Assembly (NCBI RefSeq): GCF_016342405.1
Contig: NZ_JAEINN010000002.1
Location: 186,001 to 250,000 of the forward strand
DNA length: 64,000 bases
DNA from: Maridesulfovibrio ferrireducens
Lineage (GTDB): Bacteria > Desulfobacterota > Desulfovibrionia > Desulfovibrionales > Desulfovibrionaceae
Direction: 5' to 3'
Position 1 is the first letter of the stretch. Every line of letters starts with the position of its first letter. This document shows, one piece after another, positions 21,081 to 62,714 of this stretch. The notes beneath the pieces are model-generated. The model saw nothing but the letters and a program-made list of their open reading frames with translations, ran no database searches and was not told the DNA's origin. The position numbers and the translations under genes were made by a program.

Positions 21081-23090
21081 TTAAAACTCAATTTTATTTT
21101 CAGTGAGAATCTTTTTACCGCGTTGTGAATTGATAACAGCATTCAGAGCATGAATTACTGTTCCATCAAATTTTTTATCTGCCATGCTTTGCAGAACTCC
21201 AACGGCTTCTTGAGCTGTTTTAGCTTTTCTGTATGAGCGATGCTGTACCAATGCACTGAAGGTGTTTGTTACCCCCAGAATTCTTGCGAGGAGTGAAACT
21301 TCTGTTCCCTTTAGTCCGTTTGGATACCCTGAACCGTCGATGTTTTCCTGCATCTGCCAAAGAGTTTGTGTGATGGGAAGAGAAAATTCGATTCCTTCTA
21401 ATATCTTACAAGTGTGCTCAATATATCTTTGTGTTTCAAGAAGTTCTTCCGGAGTAAGCTTACCCGTTTTTTGCATAATTTCTTTTGGAATAAAACTTTT
21501 CCCGACCTGAGACAAAATAGCCGATGCTTCAACGGTTGCACAGTCTGCATTGCTTAAAAGCAGGGTCTCAGCAATTTCTACGGAGAGGAGACGCATGAGA
21601 GCGGTGTGACCGTCGAGGAAAGGTACGCTTTCTACAGCACGGACCAAAGCATCAATAATCTGCTGGCGCATTTCAACATTTTGTGTGTTGGTTATTTTTT
21701 CTTCGGATATATCTCTAAAGAGTCTTAGTATTGAGTCGTTATCCTTTTTTTGTTTATACGGTATTCCAAGCACTTGAAGATGAGTTTGGTTAGAGCCTCT
21801 GTCTAAAGTCATTTCTTGAGAATAGATATTTTCTGACATATTAGTCATTTGCCCAATATGCGTTAATATTTTTGTCTCAGAGTTAAGGAAAGTTCTTTGG
21901 TCTGTTGAGCCTATTGCATTGTTAAAATTAGTTCCGGTTAAATCGGCAAAAGCTTTATTCACAAAGACATATGATTCTGTTGTGTTGTCTTTTAAACAGA
22001 GTGGAATCGGCAAAGTTTTGCAAATTTTTTCCAGCATGTCTTTACGTATTTTTGTCGGGATAAGTTCTGAATTAAGTTCCTGACTTCGGTTAAGATATTT
22101 TTTGCGTGAGAAAAGTAAGATTATGGTCAGGAGAAGAAAAGTTGTAGCAGCATAAGCAATAATAGCTATTGTTTCAGCAAGTTCCTTATTCTTATTTAAT
22201 TGAGCGTAAATTTGATCTGCATCAGTTTCCACCATAACCCACCAATGAATTGTCGGGATGCTTATAGCAGAGGAATAGACTTGTTTTGCTTTATATAAAT
22301 CGGAGCGTATTCCAAACTGTATTTCAGAAACACCTTTTAAAGAAACACCTACAGATTGCAGTTTGAGGTTGTCCGGGTAGCTAAAAGAAACTTCCTGAAA
22401 TTTATTTTCATCTTCTTGAATAATATGAACCGTACTTCCATAATTCAGTCTTTGATCGGTGGCTAAAAAGATGCGAAGAATTTCAGTCATGGGAACGGTC
22501 AGTACAAGTACTTTTATCGGGGCAACAGAATCCGAAAGCGCTTTGGCGGGAAAGATAGGAAGAAAAAGTTCTGATACTAACTGACCATATGACGGGCGCA
22601 GTCTGGAAAAAACAGGAGTTCGAGTTTGTAATACGTACTGAATGGATTTTTGATATGAATTTTCAGAACCTTCGAGTCTTCCTTCAGTGGTTGCAAATAA
22701 TTTGCCGTCTAAGTTAAAAAGATGGCCGGCTGTAAAACCGGATACTTTGATAAAGTTGTCAAAATCTTCTTGAGCTTTTTGGACTTTTTCTTCTTTTGTA
22801 CTGGCTAAACCTTCAAGGGAAAGCCTGAAAATTCTGGCTTTAGCAAGATTTCTTCCCTGAACAACAAATTTAACCAGTTGTGAAGAGAGTGATTCAGTCT
22901 CACTATTCAGCACTACCGATTGATATTTTTCCAAGTCATTGATTAAAATATTCTCTTGTTTTTCCAAAAAGATTGAAACGAAGTAAATTGTTCCTGCTGC
23001 AATGAAAAGTAGAGCACACAAGAGGAAAACTTTTTTTCTGTTAAAAAGTTTTTTAATCTTATTCAATACATTTAATATTTTATTTGCCAT
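21081..23090 (-). CDS. Membrane sensor with periplasmic domain, PAS and degenerate HD-GYP domain
   Basis: This 669-residue protein has a TM at about 21-41 (FLLCALLFIAAGTIYFVSIF), a periplasmic Cache-like sensor (about 42-305), a second TM (about 307-330), a PAS domain (about 355-470, CLKDNTTESYVFVNKAFADL) and an HD-GYP domain (about 490-660). The HD-GYP fold is clear (GYPNGLKGTEVSLLARILGV, GKLTPEELLETQRYIEH). However, the metal ligands are lost: the HD pair reads SQ in AILSQVGK, the HHE block reads MQE before NIDGSGYP, and the late Asp is Asn in GVTNTFSAL. It is therefore probably non-catalytic, perhaps a c-di-GMP receptor. It is the last gene of the adhesin operon, 28 bases from HlyD; a regulatory role for adhesin display is inferred. 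Confidence 0.8.
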   Translation of the reverse strand: MANKILNVLNKIKKLFNRKKVFLLCALLFIAAGTIYFVSIFLEKQENILINDLEKYQSVVLNSETESLSSQLVKFVVQGRNLAKARIFRLSLEGLASTKEEKVQKAQEDFDNFIKVSGFTAGHLFNLDGKLFATTEGRLEGSENSYQKSIQYVLQTRTPVFSRLRPSYGQLVSELFLPIFPAKALSDSVAPIKVLVLTVPMTEILRIFLATDQRLNYGSTVHIIQEDENKFQEVSFSYPDNLKLQSVGVSLKGVSEIQFGIRSDLYKAKQVYSSAISIPTIHWWVMVETDADQIYAQLNKNKELAETIAIIAYAATTFLLLTIILLFSRKKYLNRSQELNSELIPTKIRKDMLEKICKTLPIPLCLKDNTTESYVFVNKAFADLTGTNFNNAIGSTDQRTFLNSETKILTHIGQMTNMSENIYSQEMTLDRGSNQTHLQVLGIPYKQKKDNDSILRLFRDISEEKITNTQNVEMRQQIIDALVRAVESVPFLDGHTALMRLLSVEIAETLLLSNADCATVEASAILSQVGKSFIPKEIMQKTGKLTPEELLETQRYIEHTCKILEGIEFSLPITQTLWQMQENIDGSGYPNGLKGTEVSLLARILGVTNTFSALVQHRSYRKAKTAQEAVGVLQSMADKKFDGTVIHALNAVINSQRGKKILTENKIEF

Positions 23091-50165: not shown

Positions 50166-51824
50166 TTATAAAAAACCTTTTTCTATCGGTAAGTTAAGAA
50201 CTTCTGCAAGTCGTCCTTCTTCTAAAATAATATTCAAAGTTGCCCGGATTCTGGCAAATCGTGCGTTTACTTCTCTTACTGCCGCACTGGTCTGTCCTTC
50301 TCTTGCTGTAATAAGGTCCAGCAGAGTTCGTATTCCGAGATCAAACTCGCTTAAGTAAAGGCTCATCAAATAAATGCTTGAATCATAGGCTTCTTTTGCA
50401 AGCTGGTATTCTTTTGCAGAAGAGTCGTAAGAGTTAAATGCATTATCTAAAATGTTTTTGATTTCCAGTTCGGTTGTATGTTTTGTCGCTTCCAATCTTT
50501 TTAATATTGCTTCTTCTTTTTTTATCTTTTCGTCTGTAGCAAATCCGTTAAAAAGATTCCAATTCAGTGTTAGTTGTGCGTCAAAAGAGTTTTTGTCGTC
50601 ATTGTGTTGTTGCATCTCATTTTTTGCCTGTAATTTATAACCTAGAGATGGAAGGTATTCTGTCGATTTAGCTGAAATAACCATTTTCTGAGATTCTATT
50701 TCTGCTTGGGTTGCTCTTAAGCTTATATTAAAATTTAATGCTCTGGAATAAGAGTCTTCAGCATTACCGAGTATTCCCACTTTGAGTAAATTTACATTCG
50801 GTTCAATATCTGTGACCGATTGTTTTATTATGTTTTCAAGAAGTACTTTAGCCGTCTTGAATTGTTCATTTTGAATGACAAGTTGTGATTCAGTCGATTT
50901 AAGAGATACTTCTACTTTTTGAGCATCAGCTTTGGATGAAATACCTGCGTTGTATCTTTCCCAAAAGGTTTCAAGCAGTTTTTGGTAAAACTGCAGCGAA
51001 TTTTCATAAACCCGTAAAAGTTGTTTTGCCTGTAAAATGGTCAAGTATGAATTTATGGTAAGGGCGGCAATATCTTCATTTGTTCTCGCAAAACGTAATT
51101 GTGCACTGTCTGCTTTCAGTCTTGCGCTTGCAACTTCGTCTTGCAGTCCACCGAAGTTAAAAATGGTTTGAGTCATGGATACTGAGCTGTCGCCATATTC
51201 CGTGATATCGGTTTTCAGATCATGCTTAGGTCCAAGGTTAGCTTGAAAATCAATGCGCGGATAATAGACGCTTTTAGAAATATTGTAGTTGGCTTCTTCT
51301 TCCTGTCTGGTCGCTAAAGCTCTATCTATTAATGGATGGTGTATCACTGCAAGGCGGCACGCCTCGTGTAACGTAAGTACAGCGCCTTTGTCCGTGGAAG
51401 CAGGGTTTGCTGTCGTAGAAGCTGTTGCGTTTTGTGTAATCTCTGGTTTGGCTACTTCTATTTGAGTTGCATTGGAGACCGATGGACCCGTTTGATTCGC
51501 CGTAGATTCTCTTTTAATCGGTGTCGCATTGGTATCAAAAAAGTTTATATCGTCTGCACTGATATATTCTTCATCAACATTAATTTGAGAGAGCGCGTTT
51601 GAACCCGTTTCTTGAGCAGGTACCAAATCATTCTGGGCAATCTGTGTGGAAAGTTCATTTAAAGAATTCGAAGGATTTTGTTTTAAGTGTTGTGCTGTGT
51701 TGCTATTAAGTTCTGGTTTTGTTTTTAGGTCAGGAGTGACAGCATAAGCGTTCCCGTTCAAAGGAAAAAAGGGGGCGCATATTACAAAAAGAATACAAAT
51801 AATATTAAAAGTAGCCTGAAACAT
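50166..51824 (-). CDS. TolC-family outer membrane channel
   Basis: This 552-residue protein has an N-terminal signal peptide (MFQATFNIICILFVICAPFF ending near NAYA). About 120 residues of low-complexity linker rich in N, Q, T and S follow, and then the outer-membrane efflux family domain in two halves (about 150-350: LTLHEACRLAVIHHPLIDRALATRQ; about 350-552: LNFNISLRATQAEIESQKMVISAKSTEYLPSLG). The final AREGQTSAAVREVNARFARIRATLNI is typical of the helical barrel. It makes the outer-membrane exit for the adhesin with ABC and HlyD proteins. The linker is longer than in E. coli TolC. It is followed after 38 bases by the adhesin gene. Confidence 0.92.
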   Translation of the reverse strand: MFQATFNIICILFVICAPFFPLNGNAYAVTPDLKTKPELNSNTAQHLKQNPSNSLNELSTQIAQNDLVPAQETGSNALSQINVDEEYISADDINFFDTNATPIKRESTANQTGPSVSNATQIEVAKPEITQNATASTTANPASTDKGAVLTLHEACRLAVIHHPLIDRALATRQEEEANYNISKSVYYPRIDFQANLGPKHDLKTDITEYGDSSVSMTQTIFNFGGLQDEVASARLKADSAQLRFARTNEDIAALTINSYLTILQAKQLLRVYENSLQFYQKLLETFWERYNAGISSKADAQKVEVSLKSTESQLVIQNEQFKTAKVLLENIIKQSVTDIEPNVNLLKVGILGNAEDSYSRALNFNISLRATQAEIESQKMVISAKSTEYLPSLGYKLQAKNEMQQHNDDKNSFDAQLTLNWNLFNGFATDEKIKKEEAILKRLEATKHTTELEIKNILDNAFNSYDSSAKEYQLAKEAYDSSIYLMSLYLSEFDLGIRTLLDLITAREGQTSAAVREVNARFARIRATLNIILEEGRLAEVLNLPIEKGFL

Positions 51825-53520: not shown

Positions 53521-53655
53521 ATGATGGATTGGTGGGGAACACTTCCGGTTTTTTGGCAAGGCTTTATTGTTGGCGGCGTGGTTGTCCCGCTTTCTATTGT
53601 GTTAATTGAGATTGTTGTAAAAATGGTCTTGTCCCGGAAAGTCATACTGAAATAA
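53521..53655 (+). CDS. Small single-pass membrane protein (44 residues)
   Basis: This 44-residue open frame follows AGAAGGA at suitable spacing (two adjacent ATG codons, 53521 and 53524). It reads MMDWWGTLPVFWQGFIVGG then VVVPLSIVLIEIVVKMVL and ends SRKVILK. One hydrophobic helix with a basic C-terminus is typical of tiny inner-membrane proteins. The family is not recognised. It stands alone, with no partner within 240 bases on its strand. Confidence 0.55.
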   Translation: MMDWWGTLPVFWQGFIVGGVVVPLSIVLIEIVVKMVLSRKVILK

Positions 53656-53798
53656 GGTTATAGCTTCTAATCTTATCTTTCTAAATAAAGCTGTTAAGGA
53701 TTTACGTTGTTAATGCACCGTGAACCCTTTTTTTATAAGTTATAATTGCGAATTTTAATTGAGTTTAAAAAAGTTTTTAAAAATAACCCCGAAATTCA

Positions 53799-53827
53799 TT
53801 GACAATGAAAGTCAATATCAATACATT
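53799..53827 (+). promoter_or_regulatory. Promoter overlapped by a Fur-box-like sequence
   Basis: TTGACA (53799-53804) and TACATT (53822-53827) are separated by exactly 17 bases. Positions 53801-53819 match the classic 19-bp Fur box at 15 of 19 positions (GACAATGAAAGTCAATATC). The box covers both -35 and spacer, so a repressor bound there would block RNA polymerase. It lies 74 bases before the TPR gene. Confidence 0.6.
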
Positions 53828-53900
53828 GTGCTCGTTGAGTGTGTCGATGAAAACAAATTATTAGATTGAAATAAGATATTAGATTTGAAAGGAGTCAGTT

Positions 53901-54212
53901 ATGTGTAGTTTCAGCAATGCTTGGAAATTGAACAGGGAAGGAATGGCCGCTTGTAATGAAGGAGATTTTGAAAAAGCTGAGGATAGTCTTCTAGAGGCTA
54001 TCAGGTTGGCTTCATGTAAATCTCGTAAAATTCACCGGGCAACAATGTTTAACAATTTATCAGTAATATATCAGATGAGTGGTAGAATAAACGATGCCGT
54101 ACAAGCTTATAGTTCTGCGATCAGTTACTTAAATCCAGAACATAAAGGTCAAGCCGCGTTGATTGCCAGAATGAAAGGTAAGCTTGAATCTCTGAAAGAT
54201 ATTGCAGCGTAA
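53901..54212 (+). CDS. Small TPR-repeat protein, probably iron-regulated
   Basis: This 103-residue cytosolic protein starts with AAAGGAG before ATG. It contains two to three TPR motifs: KLNREGMAACNEGDFEKAEDSLLEAIRLA, then ATMFNNLSVIYQMSGRINDAVQAYSSAISYL, and a capping helix AALIARMKGKLESLKD. TPRs mediate protein-protein contacts; the partner is unknown. Upstream is a promoter overlapped by a Fur-like box, so iron limitation probably induces it. It is a one-gene unit closed by a strong terminator. Confidence 0.8.
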   Translation: MCSFSNAWKLNREGMAACNEGDFEKAEDSLLEAIRLASCKSRKIHRATMFNNLSVIYQMSGRINDAVQAYSSAISYLNPEHKGQAALIARMKGKLESLKDIAA

Positions 54213-54232: not shown

Positions 54233-54278
54233 AATAAACCGGAAAATCTGAGAGGGTTTTCCGGTTTATTTTTTTTTA
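54233..54278 (+). terminator. Intrinsic terminator after TPR gene
   Basis: AATAAACCGGAAAA pairs with TTTTCCGGTTTATT around TCTGAGAGGG, then a run of T. Confidence 0.9.
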
Positions 54279-54482: not shown

Positions 54483-55790
54483 ATGGAATTTAATATTGAA
54501 GAGACATCCCCGGTAGAAAGAGCTGTTAAAGTTGTTGTTCCAGCAGAAGAAGTTGGCGCAGCCCTTGATGCGACTATCGCTTTGTATAAAGTTCAGACAC
54601 CTATTAAAGGATTCAGAAAGGGCAAGGTCCCTGCTTCTGTCGTTCAGTCTAAGTACAAAAAACAGATTGTAACCGAAGCAACAACTGATCTGATTAACTA
54701 CCAGATCAATGAAATTCTTAATGGTCAGTCTATCGTGCCTGTTTCCAAAATTGATGTTGATGCAGCTGAACTTGTTAGAGGCGAAGACTTCAATTACACT
54801 ATTTCATTTGAAATTGTTCCTGAATTTGATACCCCTGTATACCTTGGCCTTGCTGTTGAAGAAGAACGTGCTGAAGTTGCTGAAAGTGAACTGAAAGACG
54901 TTGAAACAAGACTTCTCCAGAATATGGCTACTATTGCACCTATCGAGGATGATCGTCCTGCAAAAGACGGCGAACTTGCTTCTGTCACTTTCTCTGCTGA
55001 AATGGACGGACAGCCTATTCCCGGTGTTCAGGCTGACAACTTCGACCTTCCCATCGGTGAAGGGCATTCTTTGAAAGAATTTGAAGAGTACGTAAAGACT
55101 CTTAAGTCCGGCGAATCCGGACAGACTGATATTACTTTCCCTGATGATTTCATCAACGCTGAATTGGCAGGTAAGACAGCAACTATGAAAGTTACTGTTC
55201 ATGCAATTAAAGAGCGTAAAATGCCTGAATTGACTGATGAGATTGTTAAGCAGATCGGCGGTTTTGAATCCGTTGATAAAATGCGTGAAATCATTAAACA
55301 GTCCTACACTGCTAACCGTAAACAGCTTTGCAAGAGCACCGCTCTGACCAAACTGATCAGTAGCATTGTTAAGGATCTTGACTTCCCGCTTCCTCCTTCT
55401 CTTCTTGCCGACCGCACAGACCGTATGGTTGCTGACGTTATTACCCGCGCTGAACGTTCAGGACGCAGCTTTGAATCTATTGGTAAGAGCATGGAAGAAC
55501 TTCGCGCAGAACAGGCTACTCTTGCAGAAGAAAGTGTCCGCACTGAAATCTTCCTTCTTACTGTTTCCAACCGTGAAGAACTCACCGTTGAACCTCAGGA
55601 AGTTGAGGGAGCTCTTCAGCAGATCGCTCAGCAGACACGTCAGGACTTAAATTCTGTCAAGTCTTACTATGAAGAAAACAATCTTCTTATGCCTCTGAAA
55701 GATAGACTTCTTGCTGATAAAGCTGCTGAGTTCATCTACGAAAATGCAAGTGTTACTGAAGTAGAGCCTGAAACAAAGGGTGACAAGTAA
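54483..55790 (+). CDS. tig: Trigger factor (ribosome-associated chaperone, peptidyl-prolyl isomerase)
   Basis: The start is at ATG 54483, giving 435 residues (usual length 430-450); AGGAG precedes it, while the longer open frame upstream has none. The N-terminal ribosome-binding domain shows the signature GFRKGKVP at about residues 43-50. The PPIase domain lies at about 150-240 (PAKDGELASVTFSAEMDG, LKSGESGQTDITFP), and a long helical C-terminal chaperone domain follows. It binds nascent chains at the ribosome exit. It heads the tig-clpP-clpX-lon cluster and has its own terminator, so clpP is probably transcribed also from its own promoter. Confidence 0.95.
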   Translation: MEFNIEETSPVERAVKVVVPAEEVGAALDATIALYKVQTPIKGFRKGKVPASVVQSKYKKQIVTEATTDLINYQINEILNGQSIVPVSKIDVDAAELVRGEDFNYTISFEIVPEFDTPVYLGLAVEEERAEVAESELKDVETRLLQNMATIAPIEDDRPAKDGELASVTFSAEMDGQPIPGVQADNFDLPIGEGHSLKEFEEYVKTLKSGESGQTDITFPDDFINAELAGKTATMKVTVHAIKERKMPELTDEIVKQIGGFESVDKMREIIKQSYTANRKQLCKSTALTKLISSIVKDLDFPLPPSLLADRTDRMVADVITRAERSGRSFESIGKSMEELRAEQATLAEESVRTEIFLLTVSNREELTVEPQEVEGALQQIAQQTRQDLNSVKSYYEENNLLMPLKDRLLADKAAEFIYENASVTEVEPETKGDK

Positions 55791-60759: not shown

Positions 60760-61917
60760 ATGAATCACATAAAACTAAAAAAGATAATTGTAACATTCAT
60801 TTTTATCATAGCACTTGGGATAGCTGTGAGGACTGCTGTTTCAGCTTCTACAAGTGCGACTGATCGTAATGAACTTGAAACAGCTTTTAAAGGTGCTGTA
60901 CAGGAGCTTCATATTCCAGGAGGGGTTATGTTTATTCGTAGTCCTACTGGAGAGCGATGGGCTTTTTCTGCTGGAGTAAGGACTATCAGCCGTGGTGGGC
61001 CATTGGTTCCCATGACTTCAAATTTAAAATTTAGAATAGGAAGCATAACTAAAACATTTGTTGCATCAGTAATGCTCATGCTTGTGCAGGAAGGAATTGT
61101 AAATCTTGATACTCTTGTGCGTGATGTTTTGCCCGGAGTTATCGAAGAGGATGATAACGTTACAATTCGTCAGCTTTTACAAATGAGAAGCGGACTCGGA
61201 AATTTTTCAACCGATAAATTATTTTTAAAAAATTTTAGAAAACAGCCGTGGAAATCATGGTCTCCTGTCGAACTCCTGTCTTTTAGTCCTGATAAAAAAT
61301 CTAGATCAGTTTCCAATGTTTCCTTCGATTCAAGTTATTCTTTTGAGTACAGTAATTCAAATTACGTTGTGCTTGGGTTGATTATTGAAAAACTCACCAA
61401 AGACAAAATTGAAAATCAGATATACCGCAGAATTTTGAAACCTTTAAAACTGAAAAATACGTCCTTTCCAACCCGCAGTTCCAGTTTGTCCGAGCCTTAC
61501 GCAAAAGGGTATGATTTCAATCCGGTAACTGGAGAAGTTACTAACTTGAGTCAGAGGATTAATCCTTCGTGGGCATGGGGTTCTGGAAACGGTGTTTCAA
61601 CGGCACAAGATTTAATGAAATGGCTTAGGGCTTATTTAAACGGATTCAAAATTGATGAGAGTTTACTGAGCGAGCAGATGAAACTGATTCCGACAGGTTT
61701 TTCGGGCGTTTCGTATGGTCTTGGAGTAATGAGTAAGCATGGAGCCATTGGTCATAATGGTAATTATGCAGGAATATACACTTCAATTGCATGTAGATTC
61801 AGAGGTTATGATTTTGTTATTTTAACAAATGGCCAATCAAACGGAGGAGGGAGTGATGCCACTGCTGAATCTGTTTTTTGGCAGGTCGTTAATAATTCGG
61901 GTCTTTTCAAAAACTAA
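60760..61917 (+). CDS. Exported serine hydrolase, beta-lactamase / DD-peptidase fold
   Basis: 385 residues with an N-terminal signal or anchor segment (IIVTFIFIIALGIAVRTAVSA). The class C-type motifs are complete: SxxK in GSITKTFVAS, YxN in YSNSNYVV, and HxG in IGHNGNYAG. Family members include DD-carboxypeptidases, esterases and AmpC-like enzymes; the substrate cannot be told. It should act in the periplasm. The ribosome site is weak. Its last 11 bases overlap the end of the convergent gene on the other strand. Confidence 0.85.
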   Translation: MNHIKLKKIIVTFIFIIALGIAVRTAVSASTSATDRNELETAFKGAVQELHIPGGVMFIRSPTGERWAFSAGVRTISRGGPLVPMTSNLKFRIGSITKTFVASVMLMLVQEGIVNLDTLVRDVLPGVIEEDDNVTIRQLLQMRSGLGNFSTDKLFLKNFRKQPWKSWSPVELLSFSPDKKSRSVSNVSFDSSYSFEYSNSNYVVLGLIIEKLTKDKIENQIYRRILKPLKLKNTSFPTRSSSLSEPYAKGYDFNPVTGEVTNLSQRINPSWAWGSGNGVSTAQDLMKWLRAYLNGFKIDESLLSEQMKLIPTGFSGVSYGLGVMSKHGAIGHNGNYAGIYTSIACRFRGYDFVILTNGQSNGGGSDATAESVFWQVVNNSGLFKN

Positions 61918-62212
61918 AGCTTAGTCCCACCCCAACGTCACGCCCTTTTTTTTCAGGGGTAATCCTCTGATTGTTTTTTGGTGTATTTTCGTTATGTTCA
62001 AAAAGAAGACCTGCACTAACCCCTTCTGATATTTTAACATCATCGTGCGGTTTAAATTGTTTTTCAATATTATCCTTCATTAAAGAGGTCTTTTTACTTG
62101 AATCCTGTTTAACGGTTAAATCATTTCCCAGATTAATTTCAGCAGCCTGAACTTGAATTGCTGCTATTGATAGAATTAAGGATATTATTAATGTGATGGT
62201 GAATTTAGACAT
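61907..62212 (-). CDS. Small exported protein, paralogue A
   Basis: The start is at ATG 62212 (MSKFTITLIISLILSIAAI), giving 101 residues with a signal peptide cleaved near VQAAEI; the longer open frame upstream has no signal logic. The mature part is charged, with KISEGVSAGLLFEHNE and a C-terminus TPEKKGRDVGVGLSFSF. The ending in alternating hydrophobic residues and a terminal Phe resembles outer-membrane beta strands, but the protein is too short for a barrel. It is paralogous to the gene at 62406. Unknown function. Confidence 0.65.
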   Translation of the reverse strand: MSKFTITLIISLILSIAAIQVQAAEINLGNDLTVKQDSSKKTSLMKDNIEKQFKPHDDVKISEGVSAGLLFEHNENTPKNNQRITPEKKGRDVGVGLSFSF

Positions 62213-62405
62213 ATGATATTTTTCTTGAATTTGTATAAAATTGTTAAAATTTTTTCTTTCATTATTAATATAAGAAATATGAAGCATTAGTATAAAATCA
62301 ATAAACTTAAAGTTTGAATAATGAGTATTATTATATTCAATAATATTTTCGTTATAAATGGGTGCTCATTAACATGGAGGGAAGCACGTAATTAAGACGA
62401 TTTTT

Positions 62406-62714
62406 TTAAAAGCTGAAACTGAATCCCAGTCCAAGGCCGAATCCCTGTTTCTCGGGGGTATAGCTCTGACTGTTTTCAGGAATATTCGAATCAAGTCCGA
62501 AGATGAACCCGGCGCTTACTCCCTCAGATATGTTAAAACTATTAGTAACTTTAGAGTTATTAGTCAGACGACTTGTATTGCGGGAATTGTTTTTTTCAGT
62601 ATCAAGCCTGATAGTAAGCTCTTTCCCTGCATAACGTTCTGCAGCCTGAATTGAGGCTGTAGTCAGTCCTATAAGTATAATAGTTGTTATGATTATGATG
62701 ATCGTTTTCCACAT
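62406..62714 (-). CDS. Small exported protein, paralogue B
   Basis: This 102-residue protein has a signal peptide (MWKTIIIIITTIILIGLTTA) cleaved near IQAAER. The mature part shares NISEGVSAGFIFGLDSN and TPEKQGFGLGLGFSFSF with the neighbour at 61907, so the two are a tandem duplication that has diverged strongly. AAGGAAGG stands upstream of the ATG. The function is unknown; the terminal Phe suggests periplasmic or outer-membrane targeting. Confidence 0.7.
   Translation of the reverse strand: MWKTIIIIITTIILIGLTTASIQAAERYAGKELTIRLDTEKNNSRNTSRLTNNSKVTNSFNISEGVSAGFIFGLDSNIPENSQSYTPEKQGFGLGLGFSFSF

Follow-up and report, generated by a model that had tools for sequence, protein, structure and literature searches.

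A conserved double Fur box predicts iron-dependent control of a genZ-type TPR gene in Maridesulfovibrio ferrireducens

The window analysed here is a stretch of 64,000 nt from M. ferrireducens (contig NZ_JAEINN010000002.1, positions 186,001 to 250,000 of the forward strand), and the coordinates given below refer to it. Its plus strand carries an ATG ORF coding for a 103-aa TPR protein (53901–54212), which we call genZ-type for reasons given below, preceded by the ribosome-binding site AGGAG (53890–53894), whose GGA columns were kept in the alignment of the orthologues from 17 genomes of the genus. On the same strand lie the −35 hexamer TTGACA (53799–53804), the same in all 17 orthologues, and the −10 hexamer TACATT (53822–53827), which starts with TA in all of them; the two are separated by a 17-nt spacer, the whole promoter spanning 53799–53827, and both coordinates and sequence were as a preliminary description of the window had reported. 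The −35 hexamer also forms the left edge of a doublet of predicted Fur boxes on the plus strand, the first (TGACAATGAAAGTCA, 53800–53814) being a 15-mer scored with a Fur matrix and the second (TGAAAGTCAATATCA, 53806–53820) lying 6 bp further on, a shift found in 17/17 orthologues. Downstream of the gene, a stem–loop resembling an intrinsic terminator (54233–54270, plus strand; a 17-pair stem followed by a T run) suggests that the genZ-type gene may be transcribed as a single-gene transcript. The next gene on this strand, tig (trigger factor, 54483–55790), lies outside the Fur unit and was found 3' of the genZ-type gene in 16 of the 17 orthologous loci, the exception being G009 (L014), with other genes at this position. 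The genes that follow the genZ-type gene are presumably tig, clpP and clpX, names that we gave by recognition from the sequence. Reading by eye also revealed an ORF of 44 codons with a hydrophobic stretch (MMDWWGTLPVFWQGFIVGGVVVPLS...) 5' of the promoter (53521–53655, plus strand).

The sequence GACAATGAAAGTCAATATC at 53801–53819 equals the E. coli-type Fur consensus GATAATGATAATCATTATC at 15 of 19 positions, bearing out the match over the promoter claimed in the preliminary description. The likeness to the E. coli-type box extends to an overlapping array of hexamers over the promoter, while the site in the window differs from it in being a doublet shifted by 6 bp. Taken alone, the 15/19 match in a single genome is suggestive and not decisive. 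Among 5,000 sequences made by dinucleotide shuffling of the intergenic region (53656–53900), 14 equalled it. Matches to the Fur consensus with at most four mismatches were present at three distinct places in the window (four hits, both strands), where 50 shuffles of the window gave 0.4 on average and never more than 3. The exact E. coli Fur consensus, searched with up to 3 mismatches, had no match anywhere in the window. As for the promoter, the plus strand between 53000 and 55000 held two σ70-like sites matching at 10 of 12 positions, one of them TTGACA-N17-TACATT, and both strands together held 10 such sites as compared with 6.6 (SD 2.0) in shuffles, so that the σ70 match by itself says little.

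For scoring, we used a symmetrised Fur matrix derived from 34 sites published for two Desulfovibrio species, with the genYZ sites left out (site list from the accessible part of PMC545781). These 34 sites take in both frames of doublets, and the 6-nt shift is therefore partly built into the matrix; the raw alignment of the 17 orthologues makes the array visible without the matrix. The two frames of the doublet ranked first and third among all 17-mers of the window with this matrix, from which the genYZ sites were absent. Twelve 17-mers of the window scored at least 13, two of them being the doublet, and the matrix on its own is therefore not specific. Further 17-mers at 22395, 15475 and 56479 had scores between 17.4 and 18.9.

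Each of the 17 genomes of the genus has an orthologue of the genZ-type gene. Aligning their upstream sequences, all read on the coding strand, showed TTGACA, the TGA next to it, a C in the centre, the TCA on the right and the first two bases (TA) of the −10 hexamer to be invariant, and the 17-nt spacer held TGA-N4-C-N4-TCA in 17/17 promoters. The repeated TGA..TCA pattern pointed out earlier is, more precisely, an overlapping doublet. When the 250 nt upstream of each orthologue were scanned with the Fur matrix (with a background other than that of the outside-genus, DUF2325 and 3-kb/window scans, so that scores are not comparable between them), the top match was the doublet site in every locus and the second-best match lay exactly 6 nt away, again in 17/17. 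The score of the site was reached by at most 2 of 300 shuffles in 16 loci; the weakest box was that of orthologue L010, with 6 of 300 shuffles reaching its score and a second frame of only 6.7. Across about 3 kb around each of the 17 loci no other 17-mer outscored the doublet, with 19.4 for the doublet at the window's own locus against 14.4 for the best other one. We considered whether the conserved block could be just a strong constitutive σ70 promoter, its likeness to a Fur site being incidental, as the invariant TTGACA and the 17-nt spacer in 17/17 orthologues would fit. Such a promoter, however, needs no set spacer sequence, yet TGA-N4-C-N4-TCA occupies all 17 spacers. Moreover, g5 homologues have a strong box but other bases at the position of TTGACA (CTTGAAATTGAAAATCAATATCA in L151 and L156), and the box is therefore the shared element. 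We rejected the plain σ70 promoter because of the spacer sequence conserved in 17/17 orthologues, and regard it as hardly credible.

A search with a profile of the protein matched 99 of the 199 genomes of the taxonomic family, and 83 of these belong to other genera. From these 83 we examined 76, belonging to 22 genera (G110, G150, G171, G190, G205, G208 and G214 were left out), and one copy was taken from each genome with two. A site was called strong in this set if it scored at least 14 and at most 1 of 100 shuffles was as good. By this definition, 68 of the 76 homologues had a strong Fur site within 700 nt upstream, and in five of the eight misses a strong site was located farther up, before a flavodoxin gene, which brings the count to 73 of 76 within 1,300 nt. 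The three homologues with no box within 1,300 nt were L188 (g37) and L166 and L176 (both g48). L126 was counted with a box, since one lies upstream regardless of the fact that this locus is cut by a contig end and its assumed start is wrong. In a set of named genomes fetched separately, whose organisms overlap in part with the first set, the box was present in 7 of 8 relatives, namely seven Desulfovibrionaceae, and absent from one Anaerolineae assembly. With the box conserved in all 17 orthologues and in most homologues outside the genus, we rejected a chance match. The presence of the box ahead of homologues, the check proposed with the original guess, was thus observed in 17/17 loci of the genus and 73/76 outside it, turning a guess from one genome into a well-supported regulon assignment over 23 genera, with the box in 22 of these.

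To look at the site in its genomic setting, we wrote the promoter pattern TTGACANTGANANTCNNTNTCA from the orthologous promoters, so that its match at the window promoter is by construction, and searched the 4.2 Mb of the window's genome, which codes for three FUR-family proteins. Perfect matches were two, the window promoter and a site some 40 nt ahead of a DUF2325 gene. At most two mismatches gave ten places, four of them within ORFs; the six others precede the genZ-type gene, the DUF2325 gene, an HD-domain gene, a gene for a solute-binding protein, feoB and a P-type ATPase gene that neighbours a FUR-family gene. The solute-binding protein behind the Fur-type site is one that we take, by recognition, to be of the iron type, its Pfam name being generic. 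With up to three mismatches the pattern had 81 matches, compared with 39 for the reversed control. The stricter single palindrome TGANAAYNRTTNTCA had five further matches in the genome, of which four fell within ORFs and one between the ORF of a metal-type P-type ATPase and a phosphoribosyltransferase-like ORF; none of the five lay at a gene recognised as an iron gene. The P-type ATPase gene behind the promoter pattern codes for an HMA_2 domain and adjoins the FUR-family gene on contig C17 (around 34462), the Fur-like site being 5' of the ATPase. This pair may be akin to the ferrosome (fez) loci found in other anaerobes. The Desulfovibrio Fur targets listed in the accessible part of PMC545781 include feoAB, an HD-domain gene, a P-type ATPase gene and genY-genZ.

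Another member of the FUR family, PerR-like or Zur-like, or a Fur that senses a different metal, could also bind the doublet, which would make the gene part of a response to oxidative stress or to another metal. The three FUR-family genes of the genome leave room for such a binder, and FUR-family boxes generally resemble one another. Against it, the promoter pattern also stands before feoB in this genome and the matrix was built from sites assigned to Fur. We set Zur aside in particular since the Desulfovibrio Zur motif as printed, ATGCAACnnnGTTGCAT, differs from the doublet (PMC545781, accessible part). Overall, binding by another FUR-type regulator appears improbable. Together, the conserved box, its detection with a matrix free of genYZ sites, the FUR-family genes and the occurrence of the pattern before feoB and other genes of the listed types lead us to conclude, from sequence comparison, that the genZ-type promoter is very probably under the control of Fur.

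The preliminary description had called the gene otherwise anonymous, a statement that did not hold, as it fits genZ, a predicted Fur target since 2004 (PMC545781). In the part of that article available (Rodionov et al. 2004, PMC545781), the product of genZ is a protein of about 100 aa that has two TPR motifs, and the gene is clustered with genY under the control of Fur in Desulfovibrio; in D. vulgaris and D. desulfuricans G20, two Fur boxes with a 6-bp shift and of the form tTGAcAtTGATTTTCgTTTTCAa lie 5' of the cluster, and such shifted doublets are said to set the Fur regulons of Desulfovibrio apart. Fur control of genZ in related species is thus known as a prediction since 2004, and the same text calls the functions of genY and genZ hard to predict from genomes alone (PMC545781). 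The window protein has the size, fold and Fur doublet of this description, from which we know genZ: the 103-aa protein agrees with a length of about 100 aa and two TPR motifs, and the double box with a 6-bp shift was present in 17/17 loci of the genus. It differs from genZ in its surroundings, since the window gene stands by itself before tig, the DUF2325 gene is on another contig, and each of the two has a doublet to itself. Clustering with genY was not observed, the DUF2325 gene being elsewhere in all 17 genomes of the genus. We therefore use the name genZ-type rather than genZ, because this clustering is absent and the published protein is known to us by its description.

Published genY sits 5' of genZ (PMC545781, accessible part), and 28 of the 76 homologues from other genera likewise have a DUF2325 gene just upstream of the TPR match, within about 240 nt. 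Both DUF2325 and flavodoxin neighbours were sought with one tblastn query each, by which strongly diverged neighbours would be missed. Since the DUF2325 gene adjoins the TPR gene upstream in these homologues, we infer that the C-terminal domain of GenY corresponds to DUF2325. In the window's genome the DUF2325 gene codes for 91 aa (contig C15:41062–41393) and is probably a genY C-terminal form, and the DUF2325 gene had a Fur doublet of its own in 17/17 congeneric genomes. A pattern made to fit both published genY sites (PMC545781, accessible part) matched in 3 of 288 genomes of the family, with a perfect match at the DUF2325 gene of G008, a genome of the genus. The genY- and genZ-type genes are thus apart in all 17 genomes with a doublet at each, suggesting that expression under iron starvation has been kept and operon membership has not. 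We take the loci DVU0303 and DVU0304 to be genY and genZ of D. vulgaris, and found no paper for either locus tag.

A second arrangement was observed outside the genus, where 17 of the 76 homologues, from five genera (g13, g37, g39, g40 and g41), have the TPR gene behind a flavodoxin gene. These loci are L171, L177, L178, L179, L181, L183, L184, L186, L187, L189, L190, L192, L194, L195, L196, L197 and L198, and in all 17 the flavodoxin gene is in turn preceded by a Fur doublet. The doublet at the flavodoxin genes before TPR homologues in these five genera recalls the iron-regulated fld described in the accessible part of PMC545781; the window differs in that its genZ-type gene has no adjoining flavodoxin gene. 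These relatives hint at iron-sparing electron transfer, and a role without GenY is conceivable that is compatible with control by Fur, the protein being an accessory of iron-sparing electron transfer that, for example, docks or handles flavodoxin or a protein losing its Fe-S cluster. The position of the TPR gene after the flavodoxin gene and downstream of the Fur doublet in 17/76 homologues speaks for such a role; against it, a flavodoxin query had no match in the window's genome (one query, with no positive control), the upstream neighbour is DUF2325 in 28/76 homologues, and the 17 flavodoxin-linked rows fall in a different part of the tree from the genus of the window. That tree comprised 92 rows, L126 being left out, and was built from few columns, with long branches and a midpoint root that serves for drawing only. 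The 17 rows of the genus formed one clade (100/99). The genus side of the midpoint also took in 25 solo rows and 8 of the 28 with an adjacent DUF2325 gene; on the opposite side lay the other 20 DUF2325-adjacent rows, 5 solo rows and the 17 flavodoxin-linked rows. Nearest to the genus were two DUF2325-adjacent rows of g48 (93/82, not starred; possibly a long-branch join), both of them among the three rows that lack a box. On balance, we consider a role as an electron-transfer accessory rather unlikely for the protein in the window.

The protein itself scored above the cut-off for the Pfam domains TPR_2, TPR_12 and TPR_1, and its structure model consists of five helices (residues 4–19, 23–36, 43–60, 63–75 and 82–102; mean pLDDT 92.6), in keeping with a five-helix TPR protein. 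A fold search of the PDB returned generic and designed TPR proteins, with TPR arrays closest and a best E value of 1.1e-3. Cys2 and Cys18 were present in at least 90% of 20 aligned rows, and many members outside the genus had short cysteine motifs before the first helix (e.g. CCGRCK, CVNGKC or CGAC), while the protein starts examined in g5 had no N-terminal cysteine motifs. In the g9 members L126 and L018 the cysteine cluster runs on into a Cys-rich tail. Met-Cys is also the start of the DUF2325 proteins in the genus. The TPR fold usually mediates protein–protein contacts, and we therefore propose an adaptor role for the genZ-type protein. The same property of the fold is stated in the accessible part of PMC545781. 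More speculatively, genZ-type proteins might form a family-wide iron-starvation adaptor whose client module changes with the genus: some genera would pair it with DUF2325 (GenY) and others with flavodoxin, while the genus of the window and several more keep it as a free-standing gene under Fur, and the short cysteine motifs of many members would allow it to sense or carry iron or clusters. We consider this scheme rather unlikely.

Sequence comparison leads us to infer that Fur binds the site, occludes the promoter and makes the gene respond to iron; for the protein, an adaptor that works with GenY is what we propose. With ample iron, Fur carrying the metal would occupy the overlapping doublet (53799–53821), covering the −35 hexamer and the spacer, and the bound protein would keep σ70 RNA polymerase off the genZ-type promoter. 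When iron becomes scarce, Fur would leave the site, a short single-gene mRNA would be made and the 103-aa TPR protein would accumulate, while GenY would be produced at the same time from a separate mRNA under its own Fur doublet. The TPR protein may then serve as a small protein–protein adaptor in the iron-starvation response, with GenY (DUF2325) as its likeliest partner, a pairing that we put forward as a serious candidate falling somewhat short of probable.

In the literature searched, which included few subscription papers and no regulon databases, we found no description of the separation of genY and genZ with a doublet at each or of the flavodoxin-linked relatives, an absence that is a weak sign of novelty. 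The same search returned no later functional study of genY or genZ, and no iron response or molecular function for the genZ-type gene. A D. vulgaris fur mutant was reportedly studied in Appl Environ Microbiol in 2007. As far as the texts searched were accessible, they held no Desulfovibrio Fur expression study, and the accessible part of one mentions the Fur regulon in passing (PMC4114195).

Elsewhere in the window, two small ORFs on the minus strand (61907–62287 and 62406–62714) appear to code for exported proteins, both containing ISEGVSAG and both ending in FSF; matches to the Fur consensus with four mismatches lie 30 nt before the first (62317) and inside the second (62691). A single ORF of 7,486 aa made up of many Ig-like repeats spans 27667–50127 on the minus strand and adjoins a TolC-like ORF (50166–51824); from the impression given by its translation, it looks like a giant adhesin secreted by a type I system.
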